Under the pieces are notes generated by a model. That model searched no databases and was not told the origin of the DNA. It saw only the letters and a program-made list of their open reading frames with translations. A program made the position numbers and the translations under genes. Of a stretch of DNA of 28,852 bases, positions 3,915 to 20,568 are shown piece by piece. Each line of letters begins with the position of its first letter. Position 1 is the stretch's first letter. The stretch lies in IMG/VR virus record IMGVR_UViG_3300008113_000470, positions 1 through 28,852 of that record; one strand, written 5' to 3'. The stretch comes from a virus.

Positions 3915-4024
3915 CACAACAGCAACCCGATCCGCGACAGCCCTGGCCGTTCCCGCGCCGCGATCCAAGGCCAAAACTAATGGAAATTTCCATTAGTTTG
4001 GAGGGCGACCATGCTACCAAATGA
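3911..4024 (+). CDS. Very small proline-rich ORF containing palindrome copy 1
   Basis: Thirty-seven residues, ATG overlapping the previous stop and preceded by GGGGGG. The first half is proline/arginine-rich (QQPDPRQPWPFPRRDPRP). The second half (KLMEISISLEGDH) is simply the translation of the palindrome at 3971-4004, so it may not be under protein-level selection. It overlaps the next gene by 14 bases. It could be a real small protein or only a leader to the palindrome. Confidence 0.4.
   Translation: MTQQQPDPRQPWPFPRRDPRPKLMEISISLEGDHATK
3971..4004. repeat. 34-base palindromic repeat, copy 1
   Basis: A perfect 24-base palindrome, with arms AACTAATGGAAA and TTTCCATTAGTT, extended on both sides. 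A second copy at 16983-17016 matches it at 31 of 34 positions. It lies just before the ribosome site of the gene at 4011. Its AT-rich twofold symmetry is typical of a dimeric regulator site or a recombination site. It has no U-tract and a low-GC stem, so an intrinsic terminator is unlikely. Confidence 0.7.
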
Positions 4025-4208
4025 ACACCACCCACTAACAGAGGCGTATATGCGGAGTGTAAGCGTTCGCTCACATGAGGCGCTTCGAGAGGTGTCGAGA
4101 CTGATCGCGCACCTCGAAAAGATATGCGACGAAGTGACTGTGGCCCAATGCAAACTTGCCGCCGAGGTTCTGATGGAGCGTTTGACTCCGACGAACCGGG
4201 CGTTATGA
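4011..4208 (+). CDS. Hypothetical small helical protein
   Basis: Sixty-five residues, GGAGG six bases before the ATG. It is mostly helical: RSHEALREVSRLIAHLEKI then VAQCKLAAEVLMERL, as in a two-helix hairpin. The ribosome site is directly downstream of palindrome copy 1, so a protein bound there could affect its expression. Family not recognised. Confidence 0.6.
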   Translation: MLPNEHHPLTEAYMRSVSVRSHEALREVSRLIAHLEKICDEVTVAQCKLAAEVLMERLTPTNRAL

Positions 4209-4215
4209 TCGCCCC

Positions 4216-4416
4216 ATGCAAGAACCGTCAATCTTCAGCATCTACATCATCGAACAGGCTGATGGGAGCGTGAACATTGTCAGTTCTTGCCAGGGCGATG
4301 GGGCTCGACCCCTTGAGATCGGTCTTGAGATCATGGCGAACCTGAAAGCCGCCGAGTGCGAACACCCGGATATGCTTTCAGTTTCGCCCTTTATCTGCTC
4401 GGAATACAGGCAGTAA
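4216..4416 (+). CDS. Hypothetical small protein at the end of the left block
   Basis: Sixty-six residues (MQEPSIFSIYIIEQADGSVN onwards) with a strand-strand-helix pattern. The Shine-Dalgarno is weak. It overlaps the convergent primase gene by 26 bases tail to tail. No family was recognised. No intrinsic terminator is visible at this junction, so transcripts from the two strands may overlap. Confidence 0.5.
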   Translation: MQEPSIFSIYIIEQADGSVNIVSSCQGDGARPLEIGLEIMANLKAAECEHPDMLSVSPFICSEYRQ

Positions 4417-5227
4417 TCATTGCCTTGTGCAAGGCTGTTGCCGCCTTGAACAGACCCACCTCCCGGTGGAAATCGTTGAAGTCCTGGCCCGGAGTCGGGG
4501 GCATGAAATAAGGCCACCCCGTTTCCTGCGCCGCCTTCTCGCCCGTCTTGCTCGCATCGTTGTCAGCGATGACGAAGCCGCGAGGGTAACGACTCGCCAA
4601 CTTCACGAGATTCCCGGCGCTGAATGCGATATGCAGGGTGTACCTGCGCTTCATTGAGGCCAAGGCCGCGCGTACCGAGAGCGCCGTGGCATACCCTTCC
4701 ACCAATAAATGTGGCCCTTTGTTGTCGATAAGGTACTCCGCACCCGTGGTGCGCTGACCCAGGAGGAACTTCTTGCTCCCGTCCTCGCGGATGAGTTGGC
4801 ATCCGACGATCCGACCATCGACGCGCATGGGGATCACAAGAATCTGCTCGCCCTCGCTGACCCACACATTCCCATAGTCCTCCTCGAACCCCTTGGCCTT
4901 GAGGTAGGCGTGCCGTGCCGCCTGACATTCCTTGAGAATCCACGCCGCTTTCCTGGCCGCGCTCTCCTGCTGCTGCTTGCGCCGCTGCTCCGCTTGCTCG
5001 GTGGCCCGGCGAATCTTTGCCATGTCCACGCCAGCCTCGGACTTCCACACCACTACATCCTGATCCACCGCCCAGTTTTGCAGGAAGGCATGGTCGCCCA
5101 TGAACTTGACCGCGCCGTTGCGCTTGTTGGGATGATCTTCGGTGCGATACCGCCGCCACACCCCGATGGGGGGAACGGAATCCAACATGATGCCCATCGA
5201 ACGGGCGAAGGTTACAAGGTCGCTCAT
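4391..5227 (-). CDS. Toprim-domain DNA primase-like protein
   Basis: 278 residues. The N-terminal region (residues 1-65, with DHPNKRNGAVKF and FLQNWA) resembles the N-terminus of phage and plasmid primases. A basic helical linker follows (about 66-108). A Toprim domain then occupies about 128-260, with the catalytic glutamate in LLVEGYATALS (E177) and the DxD pair in VIADNDASKTG (D222, D224). Toprim primases make RNA primers for replication. No zinc-binding cysteine cluster and no fused helicase are present, so it probably works with the separate helicase encoded just upstream. Its ATG overlaps the helicase stop as ATGA, which predicts translational coupling. Confidence 0.82.
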   Translation of the reverse strand: MSDLVTFARSMGIMLDSVPPIGVWRRYRTEDHPNKRNGAVKFMGDHAFLQNWAVDQDVVVWKSEAGVDMAKIRRATEQAEQRRKQQQESAARKAAWILKECQAARHAYLKAKGFEEDYGNVWVSEGEQILVIPMRVDGRIVGCQLIREDGSKKFLLGQRTTGAEYLIDNKGPHLLVEGYATALSVRAALASMKRRYTLHIAFSAGNLVKLASRYPRGFVIADNDASKTGEKAAQETGWPYFMPPTPGQDFNDFHREVGLFKAATALHKAMITACIPSR

Positions 5228-10709: not shown

Positions 10710-11063
10710 TTACGGAGACTTCCTGTAGTCCGTGTTGTGTTTGTTGCCCTTGGCTTTGTTGCAAGGGCCGCACAACGGCTGTAGGTTGGTGATCTCTAAC
10801 GCCAGTTCAGGGAAGAACTTGCGCGGCTTGATGTGATCTATGTTGATGGGAAACCTTCTGCTGTTTTCCCTTCCGCATCTGCAACAGATCAAGCCATACT
10901 TTTCTATGGCCTGCTTCCTCAGCACCAACCACGCCTGACTCCGCAGGAACGGGTCGGCTGTCTTCCTAAGTTGATCCGCAAGTTGATTGTCGGTCATCGA
11001 AGAAGATTTGATCTTCCACGAAACCAACTTGGCTTTGCGCTTGAGTCGGGCAACTTGGTTCAT
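10710..11063 (-). CDS. HNH endonuclease
   Basis: 117 residues. The HNH/beta-beta-alpha metal fold lies at about 58-105: CCRCG (60-64), the catalytic NIDHIKPR (D76, H77), NLQPLC (N93), and CGPCNKAKGN with C98 and C101 completing a zinc site. This is the McrA-type layout of free-standing phage HNH nucleases, used in DNA packaging, homing or recombination. The N-terminal 40 residues are basic. It is alone in orientation, between a plus-strand block and a long non-coding tract, as expected of a mobile or late-acquired gene. Start ATG 11063 has no clear ribosome site; M23 is an alternative. Confidence 0.85.
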   Translation of the reverse strand: MNQVARLKRKAKLVSWKIKSSSMTDNQLADQLRKTADPFLRSQAWLVLRKQAIEKYGLICCRCGRENSRRFPINIDHIKPRKFFPELALEITNLQPLCGPCNKAKGNKHNTDYRKSP

Positions 11064-11140
11064 TCAAAAAGCCAAGGTCTCCCGGCAGATCGCGGAAGGC
11101 CCCAATCCCATATATTTGGTATTTATCACCCAAAGACCCC

Positions 11141-11163
11141 CCTACCCCCACGATGGGAGGTAG
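11141..11163. other. Hairpin upstream of the HNH gene
   Basis: CCTACCCCCA and TGGGAGGTAGG form a nearly perfect inverted repeat with a three-base loop. No U-tract follows in either direction. It lies between the T-arm-like hairpin and the HNH gene start. It could be an RNA structure in the HNH leader. Confidence 0.4.
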
Positions 11164-11202
11164 GAAGGGATCAGGCGTCACCCCCCGAAGGGATCGTCAT
11201 GC

Positions 11203-11237
11203 TACGGATTTGAACCGTATGCCCCCGGCTTGACGAT
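11203..11237 (-). other. tRNA T-arm-like hairpin, no complete tRNA
   Basis: On the minus strand TACGG-TTCAAAT-CCGTA makes a five-base stem and seven-base loop with the typical T-loop sequence. It is closed by an outer stem ATCGTCA/TGACGAT. I could not fit D and anticodon arms or a matching acceptor stem around it. It may be a tRNA fragment, an attachment-site remnant or a tRNA mimic. Structure is read by eye. Confidence 0.35.
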
Positions 11238-11356
11238 ACGACCAGCCGCACGGATTGTTCAGGAACTGCCCCCTAGCCTTGCGGCATACCGTGTCCCTCT
11301 TCTCTTCCGCGCCACCAAGGTTTGAGTGCTTGCTATCGTGCGGAGTACGGGTAAAC

Positions 11357-11511
11357 GGCAAAAACAAAACCCATTGGGGAACGAGCCTTAGGCTTGGTTT
11401 GCCGCAGCATAGTCGGGCCACTCCCCTTCTATGCGCTTTGACGAAGCCCGCTCCCCAATGGGTTCGGAGTTCACAGAGTGGTGCTACTACCGGGTTACCA
11501 GCCCGGCAGTT
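11357..11511 (-). ncRNA. Candidate structured small RNA of about 150 nt
   Basis: The minus-strand tract downstream of the promoter at 11518-11546 has no convincing ORF and folds well by eye. A 5' hairpin, CCGGG-CTGGTAA-CCCGG (11490-11506), is followed by a rod closed by a perfect 13-base pairing (AACCCATTGGGGA at 11452-11464 with TCCCCAATGGGTT at 11368-11380). Inside the rod are GGCTT/AAGCC and GCATAG/CTATGC pairings. The 3' arm runs into TTTTGTTTTTG, a terminator-like U-tract. The unit thus has a promoter, a structure and an end, and is separated from rusA by rusA's own terminator. Its role is unknown. I recognise no Rfam-type family. Confidence 0.5.
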
Positions 11512-11517
11512 GGGCGC

Positions 11518-11546
11518 ACTGTACAACCAGTGCCAACCCGTGTCAA
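11518..11546 (-). promoter_or_regulatory. Sigma70 promoter in front of the candidate small RNA
   Basis: Minus-strand TTGACA (11541-11546, consensus) is separated by 17 bases from TACAGT (11518-11523, four of six). Predicted start near 11511. It begins six bases after the T-run of the rusA terminator, so it would start a separate transcript. The spacer itself can form a hairpin (CACTG/CAGTG), which could alternatively explain the sequence. Confidence 0.5.
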
Positions 11547-11659: not shown

Positions 11660-12004
11660 TCAAGGCAAAGGGTCAATCTGAACTTTGACAAATCCCCCGA
11701 CTTCCTCGGCCTTCTCAATCGTGATCTTCCACTTGCTGTCGTCCACCTTCAGGACATCCACCAACCCGTCTATCCCGGCCTTGAAGCGCGCCAAACAGTT
11801 GTCCAGATCAATGGCCCTGCGGCTGGGCGGATAGAAGATCAGCGTCACATGCAATCCCTTGGCCTCTATCGGCCTAGCCCCCTGGCTCAGAGCCGTCCAG
11901 GCACAAGCCTGCCGGAACTCCTTCTTCGCCTTGGCTAACTTTGCCCAGTGAACCCGGGCGTTGGGACTCAATGTCGTGGGAGGCCAAGGCATCGTCAGCA
12001 TCAT
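11660..12004 (-). CDS. rusA: RusA-family Holliday junction resolvase
   Basis: 114 residues. Opens with MPWPPTTLSPNARVHWAK, the RusA-type N-terminus, and contains IDLDNCLARFKAGIDGL with the acidic pair D66/D68 and lysine K75, then VLKVDDS (D88/D89). These match the metal-binding aspartates and catalytic lysine of RusA. RusA dimers cut Holliday junctions to resolve recombination intermediates and branched DNA before packaging. It is transcribed away from the recombination operon starting at 12093, with which it probably cooperates. Two or three Met codons near the start (12004, 12001, 11992) are possible; none has a clear ribosome site. Confidence 0.88.
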   Translation of the reverse strand: MMLTMPWPPTTLSPNARVHWAKLAKAKKEFRQACAWTALSQGARPIEAKGLHVTLIFYPPSRRAIDLDNCLARFKAGIDGLVDVLKVDDSKWKITIEKAEEVGGFVKVQIDPLP

Positions 12005-12032: not shown

Positions 12033-12061
12033 TTGACAGGTAGATTTCTGTGTGTTAGAAT
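12033..12061 (+). promoter_or_regulatory. Near-consensus sigma70 promoter with extended -10
   Basis: TTGACA (12033-12038, perfect) lies 17 bases before TAGAAT (12056-12061, five of six), with TG at 12053-12054 giving an extended -10. Predicted start near 12068, followed by a 25-base leader to the GTG at 12093. It is the best promoter in the window and should drive the recombination operon 12093-16992 by host RNA polymerase soon after infection. A related TTGACG just upstream (12022-12027) may be a second weak -35. Confidence 0.8.
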
Positions 12062-16992: not shown

Positions 16993-17016
16993 TGGAAATC
17001 TTCATTAGTTTGCAGG
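16983..17016. repeat. 34-base palindromic repeat, copy 2, at the convergent gene ends
   Basis: Matches copy 1 (3971-4004) at 31 of 34 positions, with three substitutions of which two fall near the symmetry centre. Here it sits between convergent genes. The plus-strand HNH stop TAA (16990-16992) and the minus-strand polyvalent-protein stop TAA (17005-17007) each lie in one arm. It may mark a boundary where genome modules join, or be a regulator site. Confidence 0.7.
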
Positions 17017-20000
17017 TTTCTTAGGGGTTTTCTCTAACTTCTTGACCTCATCGTTCAACCGTTTCATTTGGTTGGTGATCAGATTTTCCTTGGCTTTTAC
17101 TGCCTCGCGGGACGCTCCCTTCTCCACCAAGTCCTTACGCTCCTTGCGAAGTTGGCGGATGTTGCGTTCGGTTGTCCGCGCCGACTCCACCAGCCGCAAC
17201 TTGGGATTTTCTTTTGTAAATGCCGTTACCGATTCCTTGCGGGCCTGCATGCCTTTGAGTTGGTTCTCAAGGATGTTCAGTTCCTCAAGGTTCTTGTAGA
17301 ACCGAGCCGACTCAGCATACCCTGCTTTGGTGTCGCCATAGAACCGGCCTGCCAACGGGATGTTGTACGGCGCAAGTTCCTCGCCAGTGATCGTCGCCTC
17401 GGTTGTCTTGGCCGCTTTAAGAATCTCTCGGCCCAAGCCGCCGGTCACTTGACCAACCAAGTAGTCAATCTGATCCGGCGTGGGACTGAACACCCCAGGT
17501 TTGTCCTTGTCTCCACCAGAAGCAAGGTTCAAGTAGTAGGACAACTGACGGCTGATCCAAGACGCATTCTCCTTGGCGCGCGTGTAGCCAGGAGTCGGAT
17601 CAAGTTTGCTGATGTCCTCTCGGGCAATCTTTTTGCCCGTCCAGTCTTGGTTTTCAAACAACGCCACGATGGGGTCAAACACAGTCGGAGCAATTGACTG
17701 AGCAGACCAACCGGCGTTGCCAATTGGGTTGAAGGCATCAAGGATCACATCGGCAAGATGAACGATCCGCTTGGCCGGGTCTTTGCCGCCAGCAATCATC
17801 CACTCAGTCAGGATGCGGCTGATCGCGGGGATAACGTGATAACCCAGCGGCAACGGCCAAGCCAGATACTTGCCGTCCCCAATCGGAATGATGAGGTTCC
17901 GGTCCTTCACAAAGTCAGGCGGCTCGTTCTCGTCATACCCCATTGCAGCCAATGCGATAGCCTGGGCCGTGCCGATCAGCAAGCCGCCATAGATCACCAC
18001 CTTCCCGGCCTTTGTCAAACGCAGGCTCGTGATATCCCCAGGCCGCTCCATCTTGGCAACGGTCTGAAGCAGTCGCGTCGTACCCTGAACGGCAGAGTTG
18101 AAGAAGGCGTACCAAGCGCCCGCAGTTGTTGCAACCTGACCCTTGCGGTTGAAATTAACCGTCAGGTTCTTGGCAAGACTAGCCGCGCGCTCCTTGCTCA
18201 TGCCTGCATCAAGACCAGCCTTGTATGCGCTCAAGCGAACAGCGTTCTCAAGAGTCTCGTTGTAGTCAGCAAGCCATCCAAAGATCGCGTTGCCACCACG
18301 ACGAACGACGCCCTGGTTCATCCGGTTGATCTCACGCTGCAATGCTTCAGCCCGCTCTTGCGAACGGCTGAACATGTCGCGGTACCCCGTCTGTCCACCC
18401 TGAGCCTGGAAGTCCTGCCACAGATCGGCCCACTGCTTGGTGGCAGGCTGCAACCCGGCGCGCTCCTTGCGAAGCGTGGAGTAGATGCCGGACATAGCAC
18501 CAGCGATGTTTACCGGAGACAGAACCTTAGCCCTAGCGTCTGCCAACTCAGTCCCAGACAACTGAATCGCAGCGCCTTGGAAGTCACGCAAAAAGTTGTA
18601 TATCCCGAAGACAGGGTTGTACTGCGTGTTGATGCTTGCGAACCACCGGGTCAGCGACGCCACCAGTGACATCGCCATGCCCAGTTGATCGGCATCCATG
18701 TTCTTCAGCGATTCCACCATCCGCGCAGCGCGGGGGTTTTGCGTGTTGAAGAACACATACCGATCCTGCCCGTTGACCCTAGCAGCAAGTACATTTTTTG
18801 CGTCGCGTACTGCGGGGTTTACGCGCTTGGTGACCAAGCCAGTCTGAGGATCGACAACAGTAGCAGCAGGCTCCTCCATCAAACCTTCCGCATCCTGCGC
18901 CGTCAGTCCCATGTTGATCAGTTCATCAACTGCTTTCTTCTTAGAGCCCTTGGCCTGCGGGTTAACTGCCAACCACACTTCCGAGTTCGGGTTCTGCACG
19001 GCCAAACCGTACACCGACACAGCAATACGGTTCTTCTCACCACGCACGATGGCGCGCTCGCGCTGCAAAATGATGTTGGGCAGGATGTCCACAACAGTGC
19101 GGCGAGAGCCCGTTGCACGGCGAGAGGCCGGGCCGCGAACGCTGTAGCCCAAGCCCGTACCCGTTCCGACTGTGGTGCTGTACTCCACATCGCCACGGTT
19201 CAGCGGGACATAAGAGGGATAGGATTTTTCCCAAGTGTCAATCGTTGACCGCTCTTCAAGCCCGCTGTCCACCAAATACTCGCGTGTACCCTTGGTGATG
19301 CCATCCACCATCTTGGCAAGCCGCTCATACTTCGTGCGCTGCTCAGGCGTCAGGTTGTTCAGGTAAGCCTGGGCATCAGCCGTGTCGATACCCGAACCAC
19401 CGGAGAACGGCGTGCCGTCGTTGGGATATGCCGGGTTGACCTTGGCAATCTGGATGTTGCGCTCTTCAGCAAACCGGTTGTGCAGGTACTCCTCAAGGTC
19501 GGCAATCGAAACGCCTTCCTTGTTCATTGCCTCCAACAGAGGACGAACCTCTTCACGCAGGAAGTTCGCAGTCTCCCTGGCCGTGCGACCGTGATACAAC
19601 TCTTCTTGCAGGTAGGCGTCCCACCGATCCTCGATGCCACCAGCCGCTTCCTCAATTGCATCAACAGCGCGCTTGAGGTCGATCTGCTTGTTCTGCAACC
19701 GATAGATCAGGTCGGCATCCAACTTGGTTTCATCGGGCATCGTCCAGGCCGCAAGGGGTTTGCGCCCGTAAATGTTCTTCCCAATCTGCAAGTAGTCTTC
19801 CTGCGAAGACAGCATGTCCTTGCTGACAAACTTGCCGTCGCCTTCGCTCAGACTATCAAGTGCCTTGATCAGCGGCGCATCAGAGCGCATGCCGAACATG
19901 CCCTTGATACGCTCACCCAGTTCCTTGAGCCAGTTCTTCAGACGGGCAAGCACTCCACCCTGGACCGCTTCGTACCGACCGCGCACGATCTCGGAACCGT

Positions 20001-20568
20001 TGACGGCCCAGAACTCGGACGGGTTGACGAACTGATAGTTGTCCATCTTTACCAGTCCGTGACGCAACATCTCAATGGCGACACGGTAACTGCGGTCATA
20101 CAGATTAGTGTCTACGCCCATCTTTGACAGACGCAAGGTGAACGCGGCAGCGCCTTTCAAATCCCCAATAGTGCCACTGCCAAAGTGATGGTTCATCAGC
20201 GCCTCGAAGAAAAACTTCTCCTCCGGGGTCTTGGCCTTCTTCTGAGCCGCCATCAAAGAGCGCAGCCATGCCTTGCGGATGGCTTGCTGCACTTCAGCAG
20301 GCATCATGCGCTCAAGGTGGTGCAGGATTTCATGGACGATGGTGCTGTCGTTGGCAGCATCCTTCATCAAAAACATGATGCGCTGGAATGCGTCATACAG
20401 TCCGGCTGTTCCTGCTTTCTTGGGAGTCTTAATTGAAATCCCAAGGTCATCCAACAATCCTTCGTTTTGCTTGATGAACCACTCTGCTAGGTTGACACTC
20501 TCTTCAGAGAGTTCACCACGACGCTTGGCCGCAAGCAAACGCTCACGGATGTGGTCTGCGCCGCGCAC
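17005..20568 (-). CDS. Large polyvalent protein, C-terminal part (zincin motif, LPD38-like)
   Basis: 1187 residues from GTG 20568, but the frame is open back to 20790 and no start codon or ribosome site supports an independent start. The part before the GTG (FGSQEPVAGEQ onward) reads as protein continuous with the upstream gene, so this is probably the second half of one protein broken by a -1 frameshift. Residues 76-90 contain HEILHH (H79, E80, H83), a zincin metallopeptidase motif. Residues about 755-815 (LADYNETLENAVRLSAYKAG, then NFNRKG) match LPD38 of large polyvalent proteins as I recall. The C-terminus is basic coiled coil. Such proteins are thought to be carried in the virion and ejected into the host. 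Confidence 0.8.
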   Translation of the reverse strand: MRGADHIRERLLAAKRRGELSEESVNLAEWFIKQNEGLLDDLGISIKTPKKAGTAGLYDAFQRIMFLMKDAANDSTIVHEILHHLERMMPAEVQQAIRKAWLRSLMAAQKKAKTPEEKFFFEALMNHHFGSGTIGDLKGAAAFTLRLSKMGVDTNLYDRSYRVAIEMLRHGLVKMDNYQFVNPSEFWAVNGSEIVRGRYEAVQGGVLARLKNWLKELGERIKGMFGMRSDAPLIKALDSLSEGDGKFVSKDMLSSQEDYLQIGKNIYGRKPLAAWTMPDETKLDADLIYRLQNKQIDLKRAVDAIEEAAGGIEDRWDAYLQEELYHGRTARETANFLREEVRPLLEAMNKEGVSIADLEEYLHNRFAEERNIQIAKVNPAYPNDGTPFSGGSGIDTADAQAYLNNLTPEQRTKYERLAKMVDGITKGTREYLVDSGLEERSTIDTWEKSYPSYVPLNRGDVEYSTTVGTGTGLGYSVRGPASRRATGSRRTVVDILPNIILQRERAIVRGEKNRIAVSVYGLAVQNPNSEVWLAVNPQAKGSKKKAVDELINMGLTAQDAEGLMEEPAATVVDPQTGLVTKRVNPAVRDAKNVLAARVNGQDRYVFFNTQNPRAARMVESLKNMDADQLGMAMSLVASLTRWFASINTQYNPVFGIYNFLRDFQGAAIQLSGTELADARAKVLSPVNIAGAMSGIYSTLRKERAGLQPATKQWADLWQDFQAQGGQTGYRDMFSRSQERAEALQREINRMNQGVVRRGGNAIFGWLADYNETLENAVRLSAYKAGLDAGMSKERAASLAKNLTVNFNRKGQVATTAGAWYAFFNSAVQGTTRLLQTVAKMERPGDITSLRLTKAGKVVIYGGLLIGTAQAIALAAMGYDENEPPDFVKDRNLIIPIGDGKYLAWPLPLGYHVIPAISRILTEWMIAGGKDPAKRIVHLADVILDAFNPIGNAGWSAQSIAPTVFDPIVALFENQDWTGKKIAREDISKLDPTPGYTRAKENASWISRQLSYYLNLASGGDKDKPGVFSPTPDQIDYLVGQVTGGLGREILKAAKTTEATITGEELAPYNIPLAGRFYGDTKAGYAESARFYKNLEELNILENQLKGMQARKESVTAFTKENPKLRLVESARTTERNIRQLRKERKDLVEKGASREAVKAKENLITNQMKRLNDEVKKLEKTPKKPAN

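Follow-up and report, generated by a model that had tools for sequence, protein, structure and literature searches.

A Predicted Family of Self-Terminating, Double-Kissing RNAs in Uncultured Phages

Introduction

The T-box antiterminator and a loop of RNase P bind the NCCA ends of tRNAs, with UGGN or GGU pairing with NCCA or ACC. In attenuators of the pT181 type, two complementary transcripts take part and the loop words that set specificity lie next to the terminator. These antisense-controlled transcription attenuators are found in plasmids (PMC3753616). The HMP-PP (thiS) riboswitch has its aptamer embedded in a terminator, and its ligand-bound pseudoknot competes with that terminator (PMC6478431). 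Among the noncoding RNAs of phages, GOLLD and ROOL contain many pseudoknots, often lie near tRNAs, form homo-oligomeric cages, and have an unknown function; many GOLLD RNAs exceed 800 nt (PMC12286853).

The window analyzed here is a stretch of 28,852 nt from an IMG/VR virus record, and it encodes a predicted RNA, RNA-1, that shares something with each of these systems. GOLLD and ROOL are far larger, whereas RNA-1 spans ~150 nt, has a built-in terminator, and has no Rfam match. Like the HMP-PP riboswitch, it is a pseudoknotted RNA within an intrinsic terminator, and the riboswitch gates what follows, as we propose for RNA-1; however, two states compete in the riboswitch, whereas the two loop-loop contacts (kisses) of RNA-1 coexist with its terminator, and the two RNAs differ in sequence and location. 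One of these kisses is akin to the T-box and RNase P pairing, except that both of its halves lie within one RNA and neither family gives an Rfam match. If the loops act as identity marks, a reading weighed below, RNA-1 would resemble the pT181-type attenuators in having loop words next to a terminator, but those employ two transcripts, whereas in RNA-1 a single molecule holds both partner loops, and a separate antisense gene was not seen. Betaproteobacteria-1 (RF02932) is, like RNA-1, a structured RNA of phages and prophages that occurs in related phages, but it is a different, nonhomologous RNA that adjoins RNA-1 and also occurs without it. Kissing loops, intrinsic terminators, and phage noncoding RNAs near tRNAs (GOLLD, ROOL; PMC12286853) all have precedent. 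What looks new is the RNA class and its architecture, which are in no Rfam family; the mechanism is put forward as a proposal only.

Results

A sequence-only reading of this DNA had described an isolated unit of promoter, structure, and terminator, devoid of an open reading frame, between rusA (11660-12004, minus strand, phrog_34) and an HNH gene (10710-11063, minus strand, phrog_144). The unit, at 11546-11360 on the minus strand, is confirmed with the parts reported for it. The sigma70-type promoter TTGACA-N17-TACAGT (11518..11546; TTGACA at 11546-11541 and TACAGT at 11523-11518) is present with 10/12 consensus matches and is conserved: a match of at least 9/12 stands at the homologous place in 59 of 90 relatives as compared with 10 of 450 control windows, and the distance of the -10 element is near-fixed across relatives. 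The promoter and the U tract together define the predicted transcript of ~150 nt (11360..11511, minus strand), which would start near 11511 and end within the U tract. The terminator said to lie just upstream, on the rusA side, was found at 11577-11562. When the minus strand from 11515 to 11350 is folded, the MFE is -79.3 kcal/mol (z -5.1) and 0 of 200 shuffles are equally stable; the plus strand of the same tract gives z -2.9. The perfect 13-bp pairing that closes the structure, AACCCATTGGGGA/TCCCCAATGGGTT, belongs to helix P3, lies within an inverted repeat of 19 nt with 89% complementarity, and is followed by the U-rich TTTTGTTTTT. The 3' arm of P3 and the U tract form a predicted intrinsic terminator (11360..11389, minus strand), the T tract having a median of 8/10 compared with 6/10 at control TTTT sites. 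Neither strand has a frame that stays open across RNA-1 in more than 21 of the 90 relatives, and therefore there is no conserved ORF. With its own promoter and intrinsic terminator, RNA-1 is predicted to be a self-terminating small RNA gene; it also shares one feature of riboswitches with a terminator, being a promoter-proximal structured RNA that overlaps an intrinsic terminator. The unit is not isolated, as had been supposed, since a second covarying structured RNA, RNA-2, starts ~8 nt past the U tract. Divergent from rusA, a strong promoter-like TTGACA-N17-TAGAAT with TG before the -10 was noted at 12033-12061 on the plus strand.

Relatives were collected from IMG/VR. A 21-base word from the stem matched 11 contigs, all of them similarly arranged, with hexamers resembling a promoter, hairpins that vary, a common core, and a terminator. 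A less strict pattern spanning the invariant core, with CGUCAAA, GCUUCGUCAAAGC, and GCGGCA among its parts, reached at least 119 contigs; with a CCAAG continuation as the filter, 90 distinct full-length relatives passed among the matches listed, all in IMG/VR phage contigs. A covariance model, R1, built from 35 of these 90 members matched 92 records strongly, once in each, including the window (11361-11509, 139.3 bits), and strong matches at ∼24 further loci, partial ones counted, some of which are core variants that lack the exact pattern. There is usually one copy per contig, and by these counts the predicted RNA is common to over a hundred uncultured phages. In Rfam 15, nothing in the window reaches the gathering threshold, and a permissive search returned only chance matches (E 0.1-5) outside RNA-1 or weakly over it; more than 20 relatives carrying RNA-1 likewise gave no Rfam match over it, in line with the earlier failure to recognize a family. 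Specifically, 6S, tmRNA, RNase P, T-box, c4 antisense, GOLLD, ROOL, and HEARO have no Rfam 15 match over RNA-1. A tRNA or tmRNA identity of the locus was rejected for want of an ARAGORN or Rfam match, and both programs also ruled out a tmRNA or split tRNA across 11190-11520, an idea prompted by a T-arm-like hairpin. Identity with Betaproteobacteria-1 was dismissed as well, as its covariance model match falls downstream of RNA-1 in four relatives and not over it. A blastn search of INPHARED and plasmids gave nothing credible for RNA-1, and one loose-pattern scan of genome contigs gave at least 120 matches, all of them chance among the matches listed. No copy was found in ∼800 Burkholderiales-type genomes (R1 in 400 and in 6 of the family of L151, the pattern in 399 of its order); for the genomes searched with R1, this absence is weak because no positive-control genome was available and the filters were strict. 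A literature search, with most subscription papers outside its reach, found no paper naming RNA-1. Taken from sequence comparison, RNA-1 almost certainly represents a new, conserved, self-terminating structured RNA family.

The stems of the multi-stem structure that had been described are real, but they are not simply stacked; two long-range loop-loop contacts organize the fold. On the minus strand, the helices run in the order P1, P2, and then the terminator stem P3, which carries P4 and P5. Hairpin P1 (11486..11510) has 9 bp and the loop CUGGUAA, and hairpin P2 (11473..11484) presents the kissing loop CCACUC at 11481-11476. The 5' arm of P3, AACCCAUUGGGGAGCGGGCUU (11444..11464), leads through the junction CGUCAAA (11437..11443) into hairpin P4 (11404..11436), whose loop GAGUGG (11423-11418) can pair with that of P2. 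The mini-hairpin P5, GGC-AAACCAA-GCC (11391..11403), contains the ACCA (11398-11395) that pairs with UGGU of the P1 loop (11500-11497). We assign RNA-1 to the minus strand because the G-U cells at columns 72-151 and 75-144 of the alignment would turn into A-C mismatches if the opposite strand were read; the promoter and U tract point the same way.

Covariation, which had been named as a check to make across related phages, is evident in the 90 relatives. Alignment A2 was made with MAFFT, with no fitting to the structure; of its 1712 cells, 90.6% hold standard pairs, compared with 71.7% after shuffling, a control that breaks relatedness, and 30-48% when partners are slid, a control that preserves it. 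Two-sided changes occur at 33 of 49 pairs and in 342 cells (28.5 pairs and 121 cells when shuffled), and the covariation score is 0.514 versus 0.185. The P2 and P4 loops share a mean complementary run of 5.9, compared with 3.96 for permuted partners (1000 permutations, maximum 4.36). The P1-P5 kiss is UGGU/ACCA in 83 members, UGGC/GCCA in 6, and mismatched in 1; the switch from UGGU/ACCA to UGGC/GCCA constitutes a compensatory change. The 3-bp stem of P5 is invariant, and it is therefore only a predicted hairpin. The CGUCAAA junction is invariant in A2; it was itself in the search pattern, but GUCAAA is retained in the variants found without the exact pattern. Both CGUCAAA and the GGCAACCAAGCC strand are fixed without pairing and are likely binding surfaces. 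Because the P3 terminator and both kisses coexist in one fold, no competing antiterminator is evident, and no switch between the P2-P4 contact and an antiterminator was seen by eye in the alignments. The earlier proposal of a novel structured phage small RNA is thus strongly supported by covariation, promoter, terminator, and the lack of an Rfam match; its suggestion of a sponge or a mimic of RNA polymerase or the ribosome found no support: none of the known mimic families gave a match, and sites for the loop words are not enriched in the rest of the same contigs.

The word shared by P2 and P4 is hypervariable. There are ∼59 different best words among the 90 members; for members 1.8% apart in the rest of the RNA, the divergence within the kissing sites is ∼20%, and for members 5% apart it is 37%, near saturation. 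L003 and L012, which are 97.3% identical over 3 kb, differ in the word (TCCGAC to CCGTAC), and the partner has changed accordingly; their 2.7% divergence, if placed wholly on third codon positions, would still come to only ∼8%. Either diversifying selection or recombination that swaps the P2-P4 segment would account for this pattern, the two being inseparable here. Targets of the loop words showed no enrichment elsewhere in the same phage contigs, most of them parts of genomes, and an antisense RNA acting on a phage target gained no support from those contigs. In L116 (1031-1222, minus strand), the P2 and P4 loops are mismatched (CTAGGA versus the GATAAC region), and this member is perhaps a recent recombinant.

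RNA-2 usually starts ∼10 nt past the U run of RNA-1, and four recurrent classes cover at least 66 of the 90 members. The window carries class A (11137..11351, minus strand), which has the crossing helices CGGCU/AGCCG and AUCGUC/GACGAU, the T-arm-like hairpin, and no Rfam match. Across 11 relatives, most of the class A helices examined, including the pseudoknot, show compensatory changes; relatives have the 5' domain CCCGTACTCCGCACG in common, whereas their 3' domains differ. The 200 nt that follow RNA-1 have unremarkable MFE z-scores, so that the case for RNA-2 is one of covariation and not of stability. In L010, L017, L032, and L033, the RNA-2 behind RNA-1 is Betaproteobacteria-1. In about five members (L034, L062, L082, L107, and L116), what comes directly after RNA-1 is not a recognized RNA-2, a gene being among the things found there. 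In L082, an ORF (∼3960-4440, minus strand) begins 0-1 nt past the U run, between RNA-1 and a class A RNA-2, and by eye it looks like an HNH-type homing endonuclease. A tRNA-like element lies inside the class A RNA-2 of L021 (3327-3442, minus strand) and also in L018, L039, L067, and L255. Such inserts are flanked by GTGTGATTGATGATGG / CCATCATCAATCACATG or similar; the L021 insert scores as a tRNA in Rfam at 33.7 bits, and ARAGORN gives no match.

Class D RNA-2 occurs in 87 contigs with 69 distinct upstream regions, 12 with RNA-1 and 57 without. In 45 of the regions without an exact RNA-1 core, there is a long terminator stem whose interior is complementary to the segment just 5' of it (mean run 7.5 versus 5.2 permuted, maximum 5.7); L318 is a divergent RNA-1 according to R1, which leaves ∼44 other cassettes. 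Where class D RNA-2 has no cassette, no full promoter directly precedes it at the 9/12 threshold. The other cassette families have a promoter, a hairpin loop matched to a segment in the terminator interior, and a U run, with no Rfam match in the loci scanned; one example, GTTGCCGTAGGAAGCGACAG...GGCCGTTTACT...AGTAAACGGCTTTTTT, is from the families seen just upstream of CATGCGGTACGTCGGTGGTG in L271, L278, L310, and others. In L252 (MW202545, 5676-6543), an array of tRNAs whose last element is a weak tRNA-Sec-like match, a promoter, a structured terminator RNA, and Betaproteobacteria-1 stand in a row. The MW202545 cassette before Betaproteobacteria-1 is unrelated to RNA-1 by sequence and similar in build. 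Betaproteobacteria-1 also occurs behind a primase-like gene without a cassette in Acidovorax phage AP1 and, by reading the sequence, in two of the genome matches, L247 and L248; RNA-2 is therefore not always dependent on RNA-1. The slot is modular, since cassette and RNA-2 combinations vary to the point of Betaproteobacteria-1 standing without a cassette.

The cassette itself evidently moves between phages by recombination, as one unit. From -79 to +88 around the core, L021 and L106 are identical, and their next aligned segments are 73-80% identical or short; near the locus, L013/L037 and L039/L078 align over RNA-1 only. The neighboring genes vary and include terminase subunits, primase, helicase, HNH, and RusA. 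By protein, the nearest named relatives are MW202545 from Manatee Spring, with 69% for terminase and 72% for primase, and Acidovorax phage AP1, with 56% for primase. Taken with Betaproteobacteria-1, this makes it likely that some of the family, at least, has betaproteobacterial hosts. As judged from sequence, RNA-1 is an autonomous, mobile phage RNA gene with a built-in terminator.

Discussion

Our best explanation, held tentatively and at somewhat less than an even chance, is that RNA-1 is a self-terminating leader whose terminator gates the RNA-2 or gene behind it. A sigma70-type promoter would start a ∼150-nt transcript that folds P1, P2, and then P3 with P4 and P5 inside it, P1 kissing P5 and P2 kissing P4. 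P3 and the U run would act as an intrinsic terminator at which most polymerases release a compact RNA-1, while a fraction would pass P3, either constitutively or under regulation by a factor recognizing the invariant CGUCAAA / GGCAACCAAGCC junction; this read-through would make the RNA-2 or gene that starts ∼10 nt later. The hypervariable, matched P2-P4 word would keep the RNA-1 copies of different co-infecting phages from cross-pairing. Evidence for gating comes from the RNA-2 found ∼10 nt behind the U run of at least 66 members out of 90, from the unrelated MW202545 cassette standing before Betaproteobacteria-1, and from the class D slot, which holds RNA-1 in 12 cases and like-topology cassettes in ∼44. 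Behind RNA-1 there is probably no room for a promoter, so RNA-2 would need P3 read-through or an upstream operon. We favor a gating leader over a chance neighbor because unrelated cassettes in one slot share a topology. Against it stand the coexistence of the terminator with both kisses, the ∼5 members in which something other than a recognized RNA-2 comes next, and the occurrence of Betaproteobacteria-1 without a cassette, and we regard the gating role itself as possible rather than probable.

Nearly as likely is a stand-alone, trans-acting phage sRNA that binds a host protein or RNP via its invariant junctions and aids takeover of the cell, RNA-2 being merely a second noncoding RNA in a shared slot. 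In favor of this reading, RNA-1 has its own promoter and terminator and recombines as a unit between otherwise diverged phages with varying neighbor genes, and the invariant unpaired junctions suggest a conserved partner; the reading leaves unexplained why RNA-2 lies ∼10 nt behind nearly always and why unrelated cassettes of like topology occupy the same slot, and no known mimic family matched. The close spacing, the complex RNA-2 domains, the tRNA-like inserts in some of them, and the tRNAs just upstream in L025, L051, and MW202545 could instead point to RNA-1 and RNA-2 as two domains of one large ornate phage RNA (cf. GOLLD/ROOL) with the U run as a linker. We consider this quite improbable, as selection on a linker would not maintain so strongly conserved a U run behind a strong stem, and each of the two RNAs occurs without the other. 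Similarly small is the chance of an identity or immunity RNA, in which copies pair in trans via the P2-P4 word, as a dimer or on the nascent copy of another phage, and compatibility groups are set by the word. Compared with the remainder of RNA-1, the word changes much more quickly, always on both sides, and its ∼59 forms in 90 members would suit such a role, but pairing in cis explains the complementarity equally well, no separate target was found elsewhere in the same contigs, and recombination can swap words. A U-tailed hairpin between two genes might finally be an ordinary long terminator with chance stems and no RNA function; a plain terminator has no need of the covariation seen in P1, P2, P4, and the two kisses, and that covariation contradicts this reading, as do the invariant junctions and dedicated promoter, and we give it almost no credence.

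Broader still, and in our estimate unlikely though not far-fetched, is a superfamily of interchangeable promoter-leader-terminator RNA cassettes in uncultured phages, in which loop contacts would fold each RNA into its own terminator, a fast-changing self-matching word would mark a phage's own RNA, and each cassette would gate a mosaic of large structured RNAs, most of them undescribed. If true, the superfamily would be a modular noncoding-RNA operon used in infection. RNA-1 is an abundant class with clear covariation, described in none of the resources searched, from phages outside the isolate collection. Its double-kissing, terminator-embedded fold and changing-yet-matched word lead to testable questions on RNA-2 gating, on self/non-self marking between phages, and on what might bind the invariant junction, and RNA-1 also points to further phage RNAs, likewise undescribed, that lie next to it or follow it.

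Elsewhere in the window, the 1187-aa ORF at 17005-20568 (minus strand) matches only the last 890 positions of the 3427-aa phrog_14770, and a giant protein of this type may be split or shortened there.
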